Shown here: one piece after another, positions 3,091 to 46,709 of the stretch
How the letters are laid out: each line of letters starts with the position of its first letter
How positions within the stretch are numbered: the first letter of the stretch is position 1
NCBI GenBank assembly: GCA_027886825.1
Contig: JAPCJS010000003.1
Location: 1 to 48,626, forward strand
DNA: 48,626 nucleotides
Source of the DNA: Nitrososphaerota archaeon
GTDB lineage: Archaea; Thermoproteota; Nitrososphaeria; Nitrososphaerales; Gagatemarchaeaceae
Direction of reading: 5' to 3'
Program-made: the position numbers and the translations under genes
The notes under the pieces: generated by a model
Seen by the model: the letters and a program-made list of their open reading frames with translations, nothing else
Told to the model about the DNA's origin: nothing
The model's database searches: none

Positions 3091-5154
3091 GTGGGCAATC
3101 GACTCAGTAGGCGCGCTTTGGTCTCCAGAGTATCGCGTCCTAACTACAAAGTGAAACTCGTGAAGAACGTCATGATCCCGATGAGGGATGGCGTCCGCTT
3201 GGCCGCAGACCTCATTATGCCAGACTCCGACGAGAAGTTTCCAGGGATAATCCAGTATCACCCCTACAGGAAGGACGACATTTCCATAGGAAACAATGGT
3301 GCCCACTACTTCTTCGCGGAGCGCGGGTACGTTGGGATCCGCCTCGATGTGCGCGGGACCGGATCCTCCGAAGGCAACATCAGCGACGAGTATTCGGTCC
3401 AGGAGATGAGGGACGGCCAGGATGCTATCAACTGGCTCGCAAAGCAGAGCTGGTGCACCGGCAAGCTCGGGATGTTCGGCTATTCCTACTCCGGTACCTC
3501 GACCATGAACGCGGCGATGCAGGCCCCCGAACCACTGAAGGCGGTCGCTGCGGCGTACTTCGCCGATGACCGTTATCGCGTGGACACACACTACGCAGGC
3601 GGCTCCCTGATGCCGATGATTGACTGCGGCCTCTATGGGCCGTTCATGACCTGCTTCAATGCAATGCCGCCGTATCCGGAGTACTCGAGGGAGAAGTGGA
3701 TGGACATCTGGAAGAATCGGCTCGAGAACTCCACTCCCTGGCCTCTGGTCTGGCTGGACCATCAGGTGGACGGGCCCTACTGGCGGGGCGCCTCCGTGAA
3801 GTATCACTATGACAAGATCATCGCGCCCACCTTTCTCATTGACGGCTGGAGGGACGGATATCCCGGGGCGGCGACCAGGGTTTATCAGAACCTGAAGTGC
3901 CCCAAGCGGCTGCTGATAGGACCCTGGCTGCACGTCGGTCCAGATGCGGGTCCACCAGGTCCCAACATTCACATCAACCATGAGATTCTGCGATGGTGGG
4001 ACTACTGGCTGAAGGGCATCGACACCGGGGTGACCAGCGAACCGCCTATCTCGATCTACGTGCAGAAGTACGACGAGCCAACCGCGAACAGAAAGTCCAC
4101 GTCTGGCTACTGGAGATTTGAGAATGAGTGGCCAATAAGGCGGAGCGTCGACTTGCCCATGTTCCTAAGGGAAGGGGGGTTACTCTCGGAGGAGCCCGAC
4201 AAGAAATCTTCCTCGGGAACATCGTCAGACTCCTTCGAGTATCAACCTCAGGTCGGTCTCGCAGGCGGTTTCTTCAGCAGCGTCTCGCCGAACGTCCTCC
4301 CGACGGACCAGCGACCCGATGAAGCGCTCTCGCTCGTTTATACGACCGAGGCGCTCGAATCGAATCTGGAGGTCACGGGTTCTCCGAAAGCATTCCTGCA
4401 TGTCTCGTCCTCTGCAAAGGTGGCGTCGTTCGTCGTCAGACTGTCGGATGTGGCCCTGGACGGGACCTCAGCGCTTGTGACCAAGGGGGTCCTGAACGCG
4501 ACCCGTAGGAACTCCTTCGAGAGGCCTGAACCTCTCGTGCCTGGAAAGCTCTACGAGCTCGTTATACCCCTGGAATCGACATCTTGGACTTTCGAGAAAG
4601 GGCACAGGATCAGAGTGGCTGTATCGAGTAGCGACTGGCCGAACATGTGGCCGACGCCGGAACATGCGACCAATACTCTCCGCAGAAGCAAGGACACACC
4701 TTCCCGAGTCCTGCTCCCCGTGGTCAAGAAGCGGAAGGACGCGCTGCCCGAACCAAGCTACCTGGCACCAGTCCCGCTCTTCCAGCCGGCGGTGGTCACG
4801 CCAGGCGCAGACCAGTTCAGCATCCTGCACGAGCCCTATTCCAAGCGGATCCTCATCCGTGCGATACCCGGACGGCCGCTGAAGATCGGGCTGATAGACA
4901 TCGGGGTCGAGGTGAGCATCAGGGGGGAGGGGGAGGCGGGTCTGTCCACGGAGAACCCCGCGTCGGCCCATGTGAAGGGTCAGCATCATGTGAAGATACA
5001 AAGATACGATTCGCTGGTGGAGGTCCTTGGTCGGAACCTCGTTTTCAGCACGGAGGAAGACTTCCACCTCCTGGCGGACATAGAGGTGAAAATCGACGGG
5101 GTGCCGTTCTTCTTGAAATCCTGGTCAAAGGTCTACAAACGGGAACTCATGTGA
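3091..5154 (+). CDS. CocE/NonD family serine hydrolase (X-Pro dipeptidyl-peptidase S15 family)
   Basis: A 687-residue alpha/beta hydrolase with the full S15/CocE layout. The nucleophile elbow is GYSYSG (S132, residues 130-135), the acid is probably in FLIDGWRDG, and the catalytic His lies in GPWLHV. A C-terminal jelly-roll-like region carries the conserved VVRLSDV and GHRIRVAVSSSDWPN motifs. RGTGSSEG near residue 88 contributes the oxyanion-hole Tyr/Gly region of the family. Relatives hydrolyse acyl esters and amides (cocaine esterase, glutaryl-7-ACA acylase) or X-Pro peptides. A broad acyl/amide hydrolase role is the safest call. No signal peptide is seen. The start is a GTG; the homologous region begins near residue 17, so a slightly later start is possible. 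Confidence 0.85.
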   Translation: MGNRLSRRALVSRVSRPNYKVKLVKNVMIPMRDGVRLAADLIMPDSDEKFPGIIQYHPYRKDDISIGNNGAHYFFAERGYVGIRLDVRGTGSSEGNISDEYSVQEMRDGQDAINWLAKQSWCTGKLGMFGYSYSGTSTMNAAMQAPEPLKAVAAAYFADDRYRVDTHYAGGSLMPMIDCGLYGPFMTCFNAMPPYPEYSREKWMDIWKNRLENSTPWPLVWLDHQVDGPYWRGASVKYHYDKIIAPTFLIDGWRDGYPGAATRVYQNLKCPKRLLIGPWLHVGPDAGPPGPNIHINHEILRWWDYWLKGIDTGVTSEPPISIYVQKYDEPTANRKSTSGYWRFENEWPIRRSVDLPMFLREGGLLSEEPDKKSSSGTSSDSFEYQPQVGLAGGFFSSVSPNVLPTDQRPDEALSLVYTTEALESNLEVTGSPKAFLHVSSSAKVASFVVRLSDVALDGTSALVTKGVLNATRRNSFERPEPLVPGKLYELVIPLESTSWTFEKGHRIRVAVSSSDWPNMWPTPEHATNTLRRSKDTPSRVLLPVVKKRKDALPEPSYLAPVPLFQPAVVTPGADQFSILHEPYSKRILIRAIPGRPLKIGLIDIGVEVSIRGEGEAGLSTENPASAHVKGQHHVKIQRYDSLVEVLGRNLVFSTEEDFHLLADIEVKIDGVPFFLKSWSKVYKRELM

Positions 5155-20288: not shown

Positions 20289-20432
20289 GGGGGCGTAGCC
20301 TAGCCAGGTATGGCGACAGGCTCCAGTGGTCAAACTACAATACGTTTGATGACACGTTCGCGTGGATGATTTCCCAATTGGAGCGGCGAAGAAACCTGTA
20401 GGCCGCCGGTTCAAGTCCGGCCGCCCCCACCA
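20289..20432 (+). tRNA. tRNA-Trp (CCA) with intron in the anticodon loop
   Basis: The acceptor GGGGGCG pairs with CGCCCCC (20422-20428), followed by A73 and an encoded CCA. The D-arm is GCC...GGC (20298-20314), the anticodon stem ACAGG/CCTGT (20316-20320, 20395-20399), and the T-arm GCCGG-TTCAAGT-CCGGC. The 5' part of the anticodon loop reads CTCCA, giving anticodon CCA. About 67 nt (roughly 20326-20392) interrupt the loop, so an intron must be removed to give CTCCAAA or CTCCAGA. The 3-nt bulges of a standard bulge-helix-bulge are imperfect here: the central helix CTCC/GAAG has a mismatch, while CTCCA can pair perfectly with TGGAG at 20379-20383. ACTAAATAG (20266-20274) is a likely TATA box. 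The intron contains two GATGA motifs but no CTGA. Confidence 0.85.
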
Positions 20433-43764: not shown

Positions 43765-44270
43765 AAATTGAGTATGAGGATACGTTTGTAAAGGTAGCCG
43801 GGCTCATCGGAGGTCCGGACTACGTCAGGGTAGCGAGGGCGCTGCTGAACAACGAGAACGCCACCGACGAGGAGATCGCCTCCGCTACGGGCCTGAAGAT
43901 CAAGACGGTCAGGAAGGCGCTCTACGACCTGTTCGGGAGGAGCCTGATCACGGGGGTCCGGGTGAGAGACCCCAAGAGGGGCTGGTTCGTGTACAGGTGG
44001 AAGGCGCAGCGGGACCAGACCGACGGTTTCATCCAGACTCAGAAGAAGAAGGTCCTGAAGAGGCTGCAGCAGCGGCTTGAATATGAGGACGCGCACGAGT
44101 TCTACTTCTGCGGGACCCAGACCTGCGTCACCCGGACCTTCGAGGAGTCGATGGAGTCGTTCTTCAGATGTCCGACCTGCCAGAAACCTCTGAACAGGAT
44201 CGAAAACGTCGAGCTGAAGGCCGCGCTCCGCTGGAAGATCAAGCAACTCGAAGAGGACATCGGCAAGTGA
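43761..44270 (+). CDS. tfe: Transcription factor E alpha subunit
   Basis: A 169-residue TFE, homologue of eukaryotic TFIIE-alpha, which stabilises the open promoter complex with archaeal RNA polymerase. The N-terminal extended winged helix spans about 5-85 (NENATDEEIASATGLKIKTV, YDLFGRSLI). A zinc ribbon follows with C117, C122, C137 and C140 (FYFCGTQTC...FFRCPTCQKPL). A C-terminal acidic-basic helix ends the protein. The GTG overlaps the trm56 stop, and its own stop overlaps the HD gene start, so three genes are translationally coupled. Confidence 0.94.
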   Translation: MKIEYEDTFVKVAGLIGGPDYVRVARALLNNENATDEEIASATGLKIKTVRKALYDLFGRSLITGVRVRDPKRGWFVYRWKAQRDQTDGFIQTQKKKVLKRLQQRLEYEDAHEFYFCGTQTCVTRTFEESMESFFRCPTCQKPLNRIENVELKAALRWKIKQLEEDIGK

Positions 44271-44806
44271 TCCCTGACGAGAGACAGGCCCTATCCCTAC
44301 ACGAAAGATACGGAAGCAGCGAGCGAATAGTAAAGCACTGCCGGACCGTCGCGCGTGTCTCTCTCATCATCAGCGACGCCCTCGCCGCCCGCGGGAAGGC
44401 CATCGATGGAAGGGCGACCATGGCAGGGGCGCTGCTGCACGACATCGGGAGGACGAGGACACAGACGATCGAGCACGGATATGTCGGCGCGTCGCTGCTG
44501 GAGCAGGAGGGCGTCGACGGCATCGTCGTGGAGATAGTCAGGCGGCACGTGGGCGCGGGGATCTCGAGAGAGGAGGCCGAGGCGCTCGGTTTTCCGGAGG
44601 GAGACTACATCCCCAGGACCCTCGAGCAGAAGGTGATGTGCTTCTCGGACAAGATGGTCAGCTCTGATGTCGTCAGGCCCTTCGAGGAGGAGGTAAAGCG
44701 GTTTCAGAGGAAGGGCCATGATGTCGACAGGCTGAGGGGGCTGAAGGAGGAGATCCAGCAGGCGCTCGGGGAGGATCCGGAGCCTCTGATATTCTCGACG
44801 ACGTAA
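44267..44806 (+). CDS. HD-domain phosphohydrolase (HDIG type)
   Basis: A 179-residue protein with an HD fold. H in VKHCRTVARVS, the HD pair in AGALLHDIGRTRTQTIEHG, and the distal EIVRRHVGAG and FSDKMVSSDVV together supply the metal ligands H...HD...D. Small archaeal HDIG proteins of this kind are usually uncharacterised; a nucleotide or phosphate-ester substrate is likely. The GTG start overlaps the tfe stop (GTGA). It ends the four-gene group; the region after it has a T-rich ATCATTTTTATACGG patch (about 44808-44822) that may serve both as transcript end and as TATA box for the initiator tRNA. Confidence 0.85.
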   Translation: MIPDERQALSLHERYGSSERIVKHCRTVARVSLIISDALAARGKAIDGRATMAGALLHDIGRTRTQTIEHGYVGASLLEQEGVDGIVVEIVRRHVGAGISREEAEALGFPEGDYIPRTLEQKVMCFSDKMVSSDVVRPFEEEVKRFQRKGHDVDRLRGLKEEIQQALGEDPEPLIFSTT

Positions 44807-44840: not shown

Positions 44841-44961
44841 AGCGAGGTGGGGAAGCCAGGTCATCCCGGCGGGCTCATAAGTTTCTACTGAGAGACCCGC
44901 AGACCGGTGGTTCGAATGGACCTTGGACTCGGTCCCGGTCCTGAAAGTCCACCCCTCGCTA
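44841..44961 (+). tRNA. Initiator tRNA-Met (CAT) with two introns, one in the T-loop
   Basis: Acceptor AGCGAGG/CCTCGCT, D-arm GGG...CCC, and anticodon stem GCGGG/CCCGC with its three G-C pairs identify an initiator tRNA. The first intron (44880-44894, 15 nt) lies after position 37 with a perfect bulge-helix-bulge: central helix CTCA/TGAG, bulges TA|A and AG|A, giving loop CTCATAA. The second (44917-44947, 31 nt) lies in the T-loop between 59 and 60: outer helix GGTGG/CCACC, central helix TTCG/TGAA, bulges AA|T and AG|T, inner helix GGACC/GGTCC. Removing it restores TTCGAAT and the T-stem GGTGG/CCACC. CCA is not fully encoded (A73 then CCT). Confidence 0.93.
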
Positions 44962-44964
44962 CCT
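44950..44964 (+). repeat. Left direct repeat of the endonuclease element (tRNA 3' end)
   Basis: CACCCCTCGCTACCT, made of the end of the T-stem, the acceptor strand and A73 of the initiator tRNA plus CCT. The identical 15-mer is at 45460-45474. The stop codon of the endonuclease frame (TAG, minus strand 44961-44959) falls inside this repeat. Confidence 0.85.
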
Positions 44965-45431
44965 AACCATAATTCCGTAAAAGGACAGAATCGATCCTGC
45001 ATTCCATTTATGTCTCCTGTTCTTTCCTCTATTGAAGACACGGACATAGTCAACAATCCCGCAAACGGTCTTCAGGTATGAGGCATTGACCTCTGTGAAT
45101 CTGTTGCGACGCGGCGCAGCAGGAAGGGTCAGCAGTTTCTCTGGGAGCGGTTTCTTCACGATAAGATAAGGGAGCACGAGTGCAATCATTTTCTTGACTG
45201 ATTTTGGCTGTTTATCGTGATTTCAAGTTGGTTCTTCCGACGCCGGGAATGGAAGGGAATATCATTAGACGACAAGATCGTGGACACAGGTCCAACCCAT
45301 TCACCCTCTTTCATTGATATCATGAACTTGAGACTAAATTTCAAAGTATGTTTGTGCTGGGTTTCTACCGTAACCGTGAGGCAGCCTTCACCATCAATCA
45401 GTCCAGCAAACCAAGCTTCAGAGACACCCAT
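44959..45431 (-). pseudogene. LAGLIDADG homing endonuclease, split by a -1 frameshift
   Basis: Two overlapping frames make one single-motif LAGLIDADG endonuclease of about 157 residues, the size of I-CreI-type homodimers. The first frame (45431-45186) begins MGVSEAWFAGLIDGEGCLTV, with the catalytic LAGLIDADG helix, and ends at TGA. The second (45189-44959) continues ALVLPYLIVKKPLPEKLL and NRFTEVNAS. They overlap as AAAATGA: loss of one A, a -1 slip on the A-run, or stop-restart are all possible. The DNA is visibly AT-richer than its neighbours. A CTAAATACAG box (about 45449-45458, minus strand) precedes it. The gene is the sole content between the two copies of the tRNA 3' end. Confidence 0.78.
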
Positions 45432-45459
45432 GTTAAAGAATGCTTGAACTGTATTTAGG

Positions 45460-45474
45460 CACCCCTCGCTACCT
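45460..45474 (+). repeat. Right direct repeat of the endonuclease element
   Basis: An exact copy of 44950-44964. It is followed by GTTCAT and then AACCAT, which also follows the left copy directly. TTAGG just before this repeat can pair with CCTAA at the end of the left copy, giving the element short inverted ends. Confidence 0.85.
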
Positions 45475-45536: not shown

Positions 45537-46709
45537 TTGGCCAAGGATTCTACGAGGTCGGTCCACGGGACCGAGGAGAACGACCGCGAGACGGGCTCCG
45601 TCACCACCCCCATCTATCAGACGGTGACGTTCGGGTTCAGGACGGCCGAAGCGGTGGAGAAGGCTGTCAAGGGAGAGTCCGGCGGCTTCGTCTACAGCAG
45701 GTGGGACAATCCGACGATACGGATCCTTGAACGAAAGCTCGCCGACCTCGAGGGCGGGCAGTCGTCTCTCTTCTTCTCATCGGGGATGGCCGCGATCACC
45801 ACCTCCGTGATGTCGCTCGTCCGCAAGGGCGACCACGTGCTGGCGACCAGCGACCTATACGGAGAGACGTACAGGCTGATGCGCGATTTTCTTCCCGGGT
45901 TCGGGGTCAGGACCACGCTCGTGGACACGACCGACCTCCAATCGATGAGGAAGGGGATGAGGGAGAACACGAAGGTCGTCTACATCGAGACACCGACGAA
46001 CCCGACGCTGAAGCTCGTCGATATCAGGGAGGCCGCCAAGATAGCGCACTCGGTCGGAGCGCTCCTTCTCGTCGACAGCACCTTCGCGTCCCCGTTCGGT
46101 CAGAAGCCGCTCGCCCTCGGTGCCGACCTGGTGTTGCACAGCGCGACCAAGTACCTCAACGGTCACTCAGACGTCACCGCAGGGGCCGTGGTCGGAGGCA
46201 GGGAACGGGTCCTCACGATAAAGAAGATGCGGACCATGCTGGGCGGGACCCTCGACCCGCACGCCGCATTCTTGATCCTGCGGGGCATCAAGACGCTCTC
46301 CATCAGGATGCAGAGGCACAACGAGAGCGCCATGGCGCTCGCGAGGTTCCTGAGGTCCCACGACCGGGTGGCGAAGGTCAACTATCCGGGGCTCGAGGAC
46401 CATCCCCAGCACGAGCTGGCGGCAAGGCAGATGAAGGGCTATGGCGGGATGCTGAGCTTCGAGCTGAAGGGTAGCATGAAGGAGGCGATCAGGTTCACCG
46501 AGTCCCTGAAGATCTCGACGCTGGGAGGCAGCCTCGGCGCCGTCGAGACCCTCGTGGTACAGCCTGCGAGCATGACCCACACGCAGCTCTCGGTGCAGGA
46601 CAGGAAGAGGACGGGCATCTCCGACACGCTGATCAGGGTGTCCGTGGGGATAGAGGACTCCGATGACCTGATCGAGGACTTTTCGCAGGCGCTGAAGAAG
46701 CTTCGCTAG
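45537..46709 (+). CDS. Cystathionine gamma-synthase/gamma-lyase family PLP enzyme
   Basis: A 390-residue fold-type I PLP enzyme of the Cys/Met metabolism family. YSRWDNPT (substrate/PLP phosphate contact from the partner subunit), SSGMAAITTSVMSL (phosphate-binding), LLVDSTFASP (Asp180 to the ring nitrogen) and HSATKYLNGHSDVTAG with K205 as the Schiff-base lysine are all in place, as is the C-terminal SLGAVETLVVQPASMTH. It could be cystathionine gamma-synthase, gamma/beta-lyase, methionine gamma-lyase or O-acetylhomoserine sulfhydrylase; sequence inspection does not separate these. TTG start, with CATTAACAA (45505-45513) about 25-30 nt upstream. Its last 77 nt overlap the convergent tiaS gene. 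Confidence 0.9.
   Translation: MAKDSTRSVHGTEENDRETGSVTTPIYQTVTFGFRTAEAVEKAVKGESGGFVYSRWDNPTIRILERKLADLEGGQSSLFFSSGMAAITTSVMSLVRKGDHVLATSDLYGETYRLMRDFLPGFGVRTTLVDTTDLQSMRKGMRENTKVVYIETPTNPTLKLVDIREAAKIAHSVGALLLVDSTFASPFGQKPLALGADLVLHSATKYLNGHSDVTAGAVVGGRERVLTIKKMRTMLGGTLDPHAAFLILRGIKTLSIRMQRHNESAMALARFLRSHDRVAKVNYPGLEDHPQHELAARQMKGYGGMLSFELKGSMKEAIRFTESLKISTLGGSLGAVETLVVQPASMTHTQLSVQDRKRTGISDTLIRVSVGIEDSDDLIEDFSQALKKLR

Follow-up and report, generated by a model that had tools for sequence, protein, structure and literature searches.

The DNA analyzed here (the window, 48,626 nucleotides in length) is contig 15 in the 2.4 Mb assembly of a Candidatus Gagatemarchaeum-like thaumarchaeon, which is denoted G000 below, with its relatives numbered from G001. 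Between the genes for an HD-domain-like protein and a cystathionine gamma-synthase-like protein (metB), the window contains a gene for the initiator tRNA-Met (iMet) and, convergent with it, a short gene for a LAGLIDADG endonuclease (Table 1). Typical tRNA annotation fails at this locus: the unspliced iMet gene is called neither by ARAGORN nor by Rfam, and only when the 15-nt and 31-nt introns are removed does a complete 75-nt tRNA-Met(CAT) emerge that ARAGORN accepts. Because the T-loop intron makes both programs blind to the iMet tRNAs of this family, we located the family iMet genes by pattern. The T-loop intron of the window has the archaeal bulge-helix-bulge splicing motif (BHB), with a 4-bp central helix and two 3-nt bulges, and yields the correct mature tRNA; the BHB is perfect (4 of 4 pairs) in all 20 family iMet genes that carry a T-loop intron. 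Generally, the family iMet genes (L011-L047) are mosaics of up to four small introns, in the D-loop, anticodon loop, T-stem, and T-loop, and many of the multi-intron genes escape standard tRNA finders. Elsewhere in the window (20289-20429), a further tRNA gene, interrupted by a long intron near the anticodon, was matched by Rfam and not called by ARAGORN.

Table 1 Features of the iMet locus in the window
Feature	Position	Strand	Basis or remark
HD-domain-like protein gene, native upstream neighbor	44168..44806	+	adjoins iMet also in G001, G003, and G010
initiator tRNA-Met(CAT), functional	44841..44961	+	two introns included; the iMet 5' pattern is matched nowhere else in the G000 assembly
anticodon-loop intron, 15 nt	44881..44895 (equally 44880-44894)	+	splicing model; ARAGORN on the spliced form
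T-loop intron, 31 nt, position 59/60	44917..44947	+	BHB with TTCG/TGAA central helix and 3-nt bulges AAT and AGT
putative insertion, comprising the T-loop intron, the replacement 3' exon, and the endonuclease gene	44917..45458	.	parsimony; between tRNA nt 59 and 60/61
tRNA 3' end in current use, T60-A73, putative element-borne replacement	44948..44961	+	anatomy; direction from the analogy with tRNA-Gln and eMet
single-motif LAGLIDADG endonuclease	44959..45431	-	convergent with iMet; frameshift near 45187
TATA-like box CCTAAATACAG	45449..45459	-	precedes the endonuclease ATG by about 20-27 nt; abuts the displaced tRNA end
displaced original tRNA 3' end	45459..45471	+	12 of 13 bases; includes the start of the exact 15-mer 45460-45474; 65 bp before metB
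cystathionine gamma-synthase-like gene (metB), native downstream neighbor	45537..46709	+	marker for the empty site

The N-terminal half of the predicted endonuclease matches the LAGLIDADG_1 profile (PF00961) with E = 4e-5 and 24.9 bits, above the gathering cut-off of 23.1 (relatives score up to 27.4), contains the motif FAGLIDGEG with its acidic residue, and is matched by the PDB profiles of I-HjeMI, I-AniI, I-CvuI, and I-MsoI; an AlphaFold model from a two-sequence input reached a pLDDT of 48 and was left unused. The frameshift splits the window gene into halves of 81 and 76 amino acids, leaving no intact ORF, so that this copy is probably immobile now; the ORF is intact in three relatives (G001, G003, and G010). 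As the preliminary description of this DNA had noticed, the gene terminates inside the tRNA, its TAG stop codon being the complement of 44959-44961, the final three bases of the tRNA. The same description held that the LAGLIDADG frame is the only content of the segment and that the segment is AT-richer than its surroundings; the profile match and the GC content (45%, versus 62% in the flanks) bear it out on both counts. Its proposal that CCTAA/TTAGG inverted sequences form the ends of the element was rejected for lack of conservation among the relatives; TTAGG is part of the TATA-like box of the endonuclease, and CCTAA belongs to the tRNA trailer. The TATA-like box, which is resembled by TAAATAC boxes in G001 and G003, would be the promoter of the endonuclease gene.

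The 15-mer CACCCCTCGCTACCT occurs in two exact copies, at 44950-44964 and 45460-45474, as previously stated. The left copy lies at the terminus of the functional tRNA, likewise in agreement with the preliminary description, and the T-loop intron, which that description had seen beside the repeat, ends 2 nt short of it. The position of the right copy can be understood by comparison with the empty site. In element-free relatives, the end of the tRNA is separated from metB by 47-66 bp, and at element-bearing loci, the corresponding distance, measured from the second copy, is 65 bp in the window, 48 bp in G001, and 53 bp in G012. The second copy is the original 3' end of the tRNA that was pushed downstream while its native distance from metB was kept, and when the upstream part of the tRNA is joined to it, a tRNA-like gene is restored. 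The first copy is probably a replacement end borne by the element; in the window, the used and displaced ends are almost identical in sequence, and the direction of the replacement is taken from the other tRNAs discussed below. A single insertion between nt 59 and 60/61 would account for the intron, the duplicated end, and the endonuclease gene all at once and, thus, is the most parsimonious reading.

Because LAGLIDADG genes can reside in archaeal rRNA introns, and because the displaced copy begins exactly at the position of the T-loop intron, one could suppose that the T-loop intron is in fact long, encloses the endonuclease, and is spliced at the downstream copy, which then would be the real end of the tRNA. 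This is very unlikely. In all four LAGLIDADG_1 elements identified in this work, the BHB is perfect at the upstream copy, but the displaced end does not have the TGAA that this motif requires; the endonuclease gene thus lies outside any large intron. Furthermore, the displaced end in the window contains a T-stem mismatch and, without a BHB partner, is not spliceable, and the gene is antisense and has a TATA-like box of its own.

The same arrangement recurs at the iMet loci of the family Gagatemarchaeaceae. Homologs of the endonuclease, with 52-69% amino acid identity, lie directly downstream of iMet in antisense orientation in G001, G003, and G010; in each of these genomes, a second tRNA 3' end follows 507-510 bp on, beyond the endonuclease, and in G001, the used and displaced ends have the variant T-stem CCTCC in common. 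We searched 35 family iMet loci for a second copy of the terminal 13-mer, with up to 1 mismatch and within 1.5 kb, and found it on the same strand in 7 loci, compared with 0.05 loci expected by chance from shuffled 13-mers, and on the opposite strand in none (0/35). All seven loci contain a nuclease-type ORF between the two ends, and the 28 others have neither feature. Neither of the outcomes that the preliminary description named as refuting it was seen at iMet: there is no endonuclease without the duplication and no second copy in the element-free relatives. Long gaps between iMet and metB in other genomes mostly contain ordinary genes (arginase, DinB-like, transporter), and a 12/13 match 2 kb downstream of iMet in G029 was dropped as a displaced end because it is within the chance expectation.

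The nuclease-type ORFs at iMet are not all of one family. Besides the LAGLIDADG_1 endonucleases, there is a two-motif LAGLIDADG_3 protein in G012 (E = 7.7e-13), a 138-aa protein of the LYWxEG type in G033, and a protein of an uncharacterized family, N, in G007. In G012, the used end has the T-stem CCTCC and lacks a T-loop intron, whereas the displaced end has CCACC and contains such an intron, which suggests that the used end is foreign and the displaced one native. In G007 and G033, introns are present in the displaced ends and absent from the functional gene. Altogether, the arrangement at iMet is real and recurrent, and not a matter of chance.

The endonuclease genes are maintained by purifying selection, judging by pN of 0.19-0.31 versus pS of 0.71-0.84. 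Their similarities depart from those of the host genes: between G001 and G010, the endonucleases are 69% identical and the metB proteins 64%, whereas between G000 and G001, the values are 54% and 74%, a weak signal of horizontal transfer in a set of four sequences. An alignment-based scan placed homologs in hosts that include Ca. Gagatemarchaeum stordalenia and a second thaumarchaeal MAG; a scan of genome contigs with the single window endonuclease as the query gave no match, and no relatives were found in the viral contigs searched. Remoter matches located away from tRNAs are in group I introns (L089, L104, L105), in rRNA (L094), and near a transposase-like ORF (L091). Some LAGLIDADG proteins are maturases, and together with the purifying selection, this might be taken to mean that the endonuclease is a splicing helper for tRNA introns that is kept by the host. 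We consider this extremely unlikely, the least probable of the readings weighed here, given that BHB introns are excised by the tRNA splicing endonuclease, most of the intron-bearing genomes lack the gene, the window gene is frameshifted, and unrelated nuclease families occupy the same position.

Other tRNA genes of the family show the same design. Genes of the N family adjoin, and are convergent with, tRNA-eMet (G033 and G003), tRNA-Gln (G001), and tRNA-Lys (G010), and in each case the displaced end lies beyond the N gene; in G007, a LYWxEG gene follows tRNA-Phe on the 3' side, with a displaced end immediately beyond it. Comparison of T-stems reveals the direction of the exchange: the used end of tRNA-Gln in G001 has the T-stem CTCAG/CTGAG, which is found in 0 of 20 other genomes, whereas the displaced end has CCAGG/CCTGG, the same as in the congeners, and the displaced end of eMet in G003, GAGCG/CGCTC, is that of G002 and G005. 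In these two cases, therefore, the used end is foreign and the displaced end native. The breakpoints differ among the families and are not fixed for each nuclease type: all four LAGLIDADG_1 elements break at 59/60; the N elements break four times in the V-region and once in the D-arm, the latter in the tRNA-Lys of G010, of which nearly the whole was displaced; and LYWxEG elements break in the anticodon of one tRNA and in the T-loop of another. An N gene in G038 (L141, G038:C2), located 17 nt from tRNA-His and convergent with it, has no recognizable displaced end. Outside Gagatemarchaeaceae, in another family of the same taxonomic order, a tRNA-Lys(TTT) with a T-loop intron in G060 (L093/L157, G060:C90) is followed by a distant LAGLIDADG_1 homolog; the sole candidate for a displaced end at this locus is degenerate (CCGGACGAGCCAAA).

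The N proteins match nothing in Pfam, NCBIfam, PHROGs, or PDB, and for the LYWxEG proteins, no database match indicates a nuclease; from a motif read by eye, we would guess that N is a putative nuclease. The N family is essentially confined to Gagatemarchaeaceae, with 1 weak match in 398 genomes of the phylum. Apart from its short forms next to tRNAs, the N domain, in the A2 family (for example, L129, L138, L148-L152, and L154), terminates large proteins of 730-770 amino acids with hydrophobic N-terminal parts, which are present in several copies in G007. Several other loci contain repeated or isolated tRNA-like ends. In L110 (G010:C12), a sequence resembling a tRNA 3' end (1867-1888) follows a LYWxEG gene, and the neighboring tRNA-Gly is oppositely oriented; the sequence may be the remnant of an element that was rearranged. 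In L142 (G005:C68), about 30 nt of the 3' end and trailer of a tRNA, apparently Leu (3220-3320), are repeated 1.6 kb later (at about 4895-4930), and the interval contains a surface-protein-like ORF and no nuclease. Exact copies of GGGCCCGTAGCTCAG are located 1.2-1.4 kb upstream of an Arg-like tRNA in L213 (G000:C79:6300-8700, in the window genome) and L215 (G005:C82:1500-3500), where the intervening ORFs are cupin-like and methyltransferase-like, respectively, and not nucleases.

Mirror-image elements, in which the 5' end is displaced, are found as well. In G007, G022, and G005, tRNA-Gln is preceded by a LAGLIDADG gene and is interrupted in the D-stem, near 10/11, by an intron of 17-18 nt; the gene is present in 3 of the 5 genomes with the D-stem intron and in 0 of the 16 without it (Fisher P ~0.008, computed by hand). 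About 0.8 kb upstream, G005 and G007 have a displaced 5' end of tRNA-Gln that lacks the intron. Since the functional tRNA is intron-bearing, arrival of the intron together with the element is the simplest reading. LAGLIDADG genes beside tRNAs with duplicated ends, a search for which the preliminary description had recommended, are found at iMet in G001, G003, G010, and G012 and, in mirror form, at tRNA-Gln in G005 and G007. A further locus in G007 (L214, G007:C35:32000-33900) has the order displaced eMet 5' end, antisense 281-aa ORF, and complete eMet with a D-loop intron; the ORF has a PD-(D/E)XK-like look (PDFIVGDLVIECT) and no Pfam match.

Direct repeats of a tRNA 3' end are classic att sites, and, as one of two options, the preliminary description had the element target the tRNA 3' end in the manner of an integrase-type element. 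In such a model, a small island would have been inserted in trans by a tyrosine recombinase, and the endonuclease would be its cargo. The att-site model also was chosen by Sugahara et al. (2012) for a similar locus, the tRNA-Thr(GGU) of Caldiarchaeum subterraneum, where an element of about 1.9 kb is accompanied by a displaced 5' fragment covering nt 1-27, and the tRNA gained an intron at 24/25; the element encodes a protein predicted to be involved in DNA binding or recombination, and the authors proposed integrase action at the locus (PMC3293823). Its geometry is nearly the same as that of the tRNA-Gln elements of Gagatemarchaeaceae, making it the nearest archaeal precedent; however, Caldiarchaeum provides one locus, whereas in Gagatemarchaeaceae the arrangement is found at multiple loci, in different tRNAs, and with more than one type of nuclease, clear LAGLIDADG enzymes among them. 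For these elements, integration of this kind appears unlikely. None of them encodes an integrase, each being about the size of one nuclease gene, and in the window, the LAGLIDADG gene is all that lies between the repeats, with no site-specific recombinase. The breakpoints are spread over the T-loop, V-region, anticodon, and D-arm and occur at 5' ends also; the repeated ends are often unlike in T-stem or intron content; and the supposed cargo is a nuclease-type ORF in all seven iMet cases. Elements of the SSV/pNOB8 type resemble the present ones in that they use tRNA ends and restore the tRNA, but differ in that they require an integrase and have near-identical att repeats.

The other option raised in the preliminary description, collateral homing of the T-loop intron, is closer to the data. 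In its favor, the intron does not enclose the endonuclease, the element was inserted just where the intron sits, and tRNA-Gln did gain an intron; the carriage of the T-loop intron by the element at iMet, however, is not proven and is the weakest step of the mechanism. The intron is present in 4 of the 4 iMet loci with the LAGLIDADG_1 endonuclease, compared with 16 of the 30 without it, a difference that is not significant (P = 0.10) because the intron is so common in the endonuclease-free loci. An alternative thus has some weight, namely, that the endonuclease targets the T-stem and acceptor of an iMet that already bears the intron, intron and element merely sharing a crowded target; this is compatible with the fact that the T-loop introns of element-bearing genomes are no more alike than others. 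We regard it as a possible, though less favored, account, considering that the intron is present with all four LAGLIDADG_1 elements and marks exactly where they break, that the distant homolog in G060 adjoins a tRNA-Lys also bearing a T-loop intron, and that the tRNA-Gln intron demonstrably came with the element.

The locus probably contains a minimal homing element that resides in a tRNA gene, outside any spliced intron or intein, and replaced one end of the tRNA. In the scheme that we propose, the endonuclease would cut an element-free iMet gene in the T-arm, near the site of the T-loop intron, and repair would copy in the element, consisting of a working replacement 3' end, a small BHB intron, and the antisense endonuclease gene; in the case of LAGLIDADG_1, one insertion between nt 59 and 60/61 would bring the intron, the new end, and the gene. 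The recipient's own 3' end would stay downstream as a dead fragment. Re-cutting would be resisted in the LAGLIDADG elements by the BHB intron in the replacement end, which breaks up the target site, and in the N elements by the changed yet still paired T-stem. DNA cleavage, the position of the cut, protection by the intron, and cell-to-cell transfer are predicted from the arrangement of the loci. Compared with the preliminary description, the second copy is now recognized as the displaced original end and the first copy, probably, as the replacement brought by the element. In addition, the arrangement now extends to several nucleases that are unrelated to each other, to several tRNAs, and to either end of the gene.

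The closest parallels in the manner of working are the mobile ORF elements (mORFs) of fungal mitochondria, which have been described in atp6 of Allomyces macrogynus, atp9 of Rhizopus, and atp6, atp9, cox2, and nad3 of Glomus (PMC3630166). In these, an endonuclease gene follows a foreign 3' part that is fused to the host gene, the native 3' part is displaced downstream, and the native part matches the relatives, whereas the inserted part does not (PMC3630166). The defining arrangement, an endonuclease between the used and displaced 3' ends, is found in the window and at six other iMet loci. The mORFs, however, invade protein-coding organellar genes and encode LAGLIDADG or GIY-YIG enzymes, whereas the archaeal elements target tRNAs, involve introns, usually carry the gene in antisense, and can swap 5' ends too. 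The element works by end replacement as mORFs do, yet at archaeal tRNA genes, with introns, several nucleases, and both gene ends; given its target, an archaeal tRNA gene, we do not file it as an mORF. In collaborative homing, as represented by F-CphI of a cyanophage, the endonuclease likewise lies outside the intron and targets the intron insertion site (PMC6083498, PMC3984707), but that system has neither a displaced end of the host gene nor an archaeal tRNA intron. The window protein resembles I-CreI, I-MsoI, and I-CvuI in being a single-motif LAGLIDADG protein of the same size class with a profile match; those enzymes are encoded within group I introns, whereas the window gene lies outside any intron. 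A search of the literature, subscription papers aside, yielded no description of archaeal endonuclease elements that swap tRNA ends.

We tentatively suggest that these loci represent a class of archaeal mobile elements, with several unrelated nucleases, that would spread by cutting tRNA genes and swapping their ends, with introns or changed T-stems blocking re-cutting and tRNA fragments left behind; in this case, N would be a new family of homing nucleases, and such elements may be a main route by which non-canonical introns are gained and might also have given rise to split tRNAs. A role in defense against integration has been discussed for split tRNAs and for introns (PMC3218864, PMC4090602), and a 2014 review called the mechanism of archaeal intron transposition unknown (PMC4090602). 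The loci described here offer a concrete candidate mechanism for the gain of tRNA introns in odd positions, in which the endonuclease is outside the intron, the target is the intron site, and the displaced end serves as a record. At tRNA-Gln, this record reads intron-less before the insertion and intron-bearing after it. The fungal end-swapping elements and the puzzle of the Caldiarchaeum tRNA-Thr are thereby linked, and it becomes apparent that repeated invasion of a single-copy, essential tRNA gene is compatible with its continued function.
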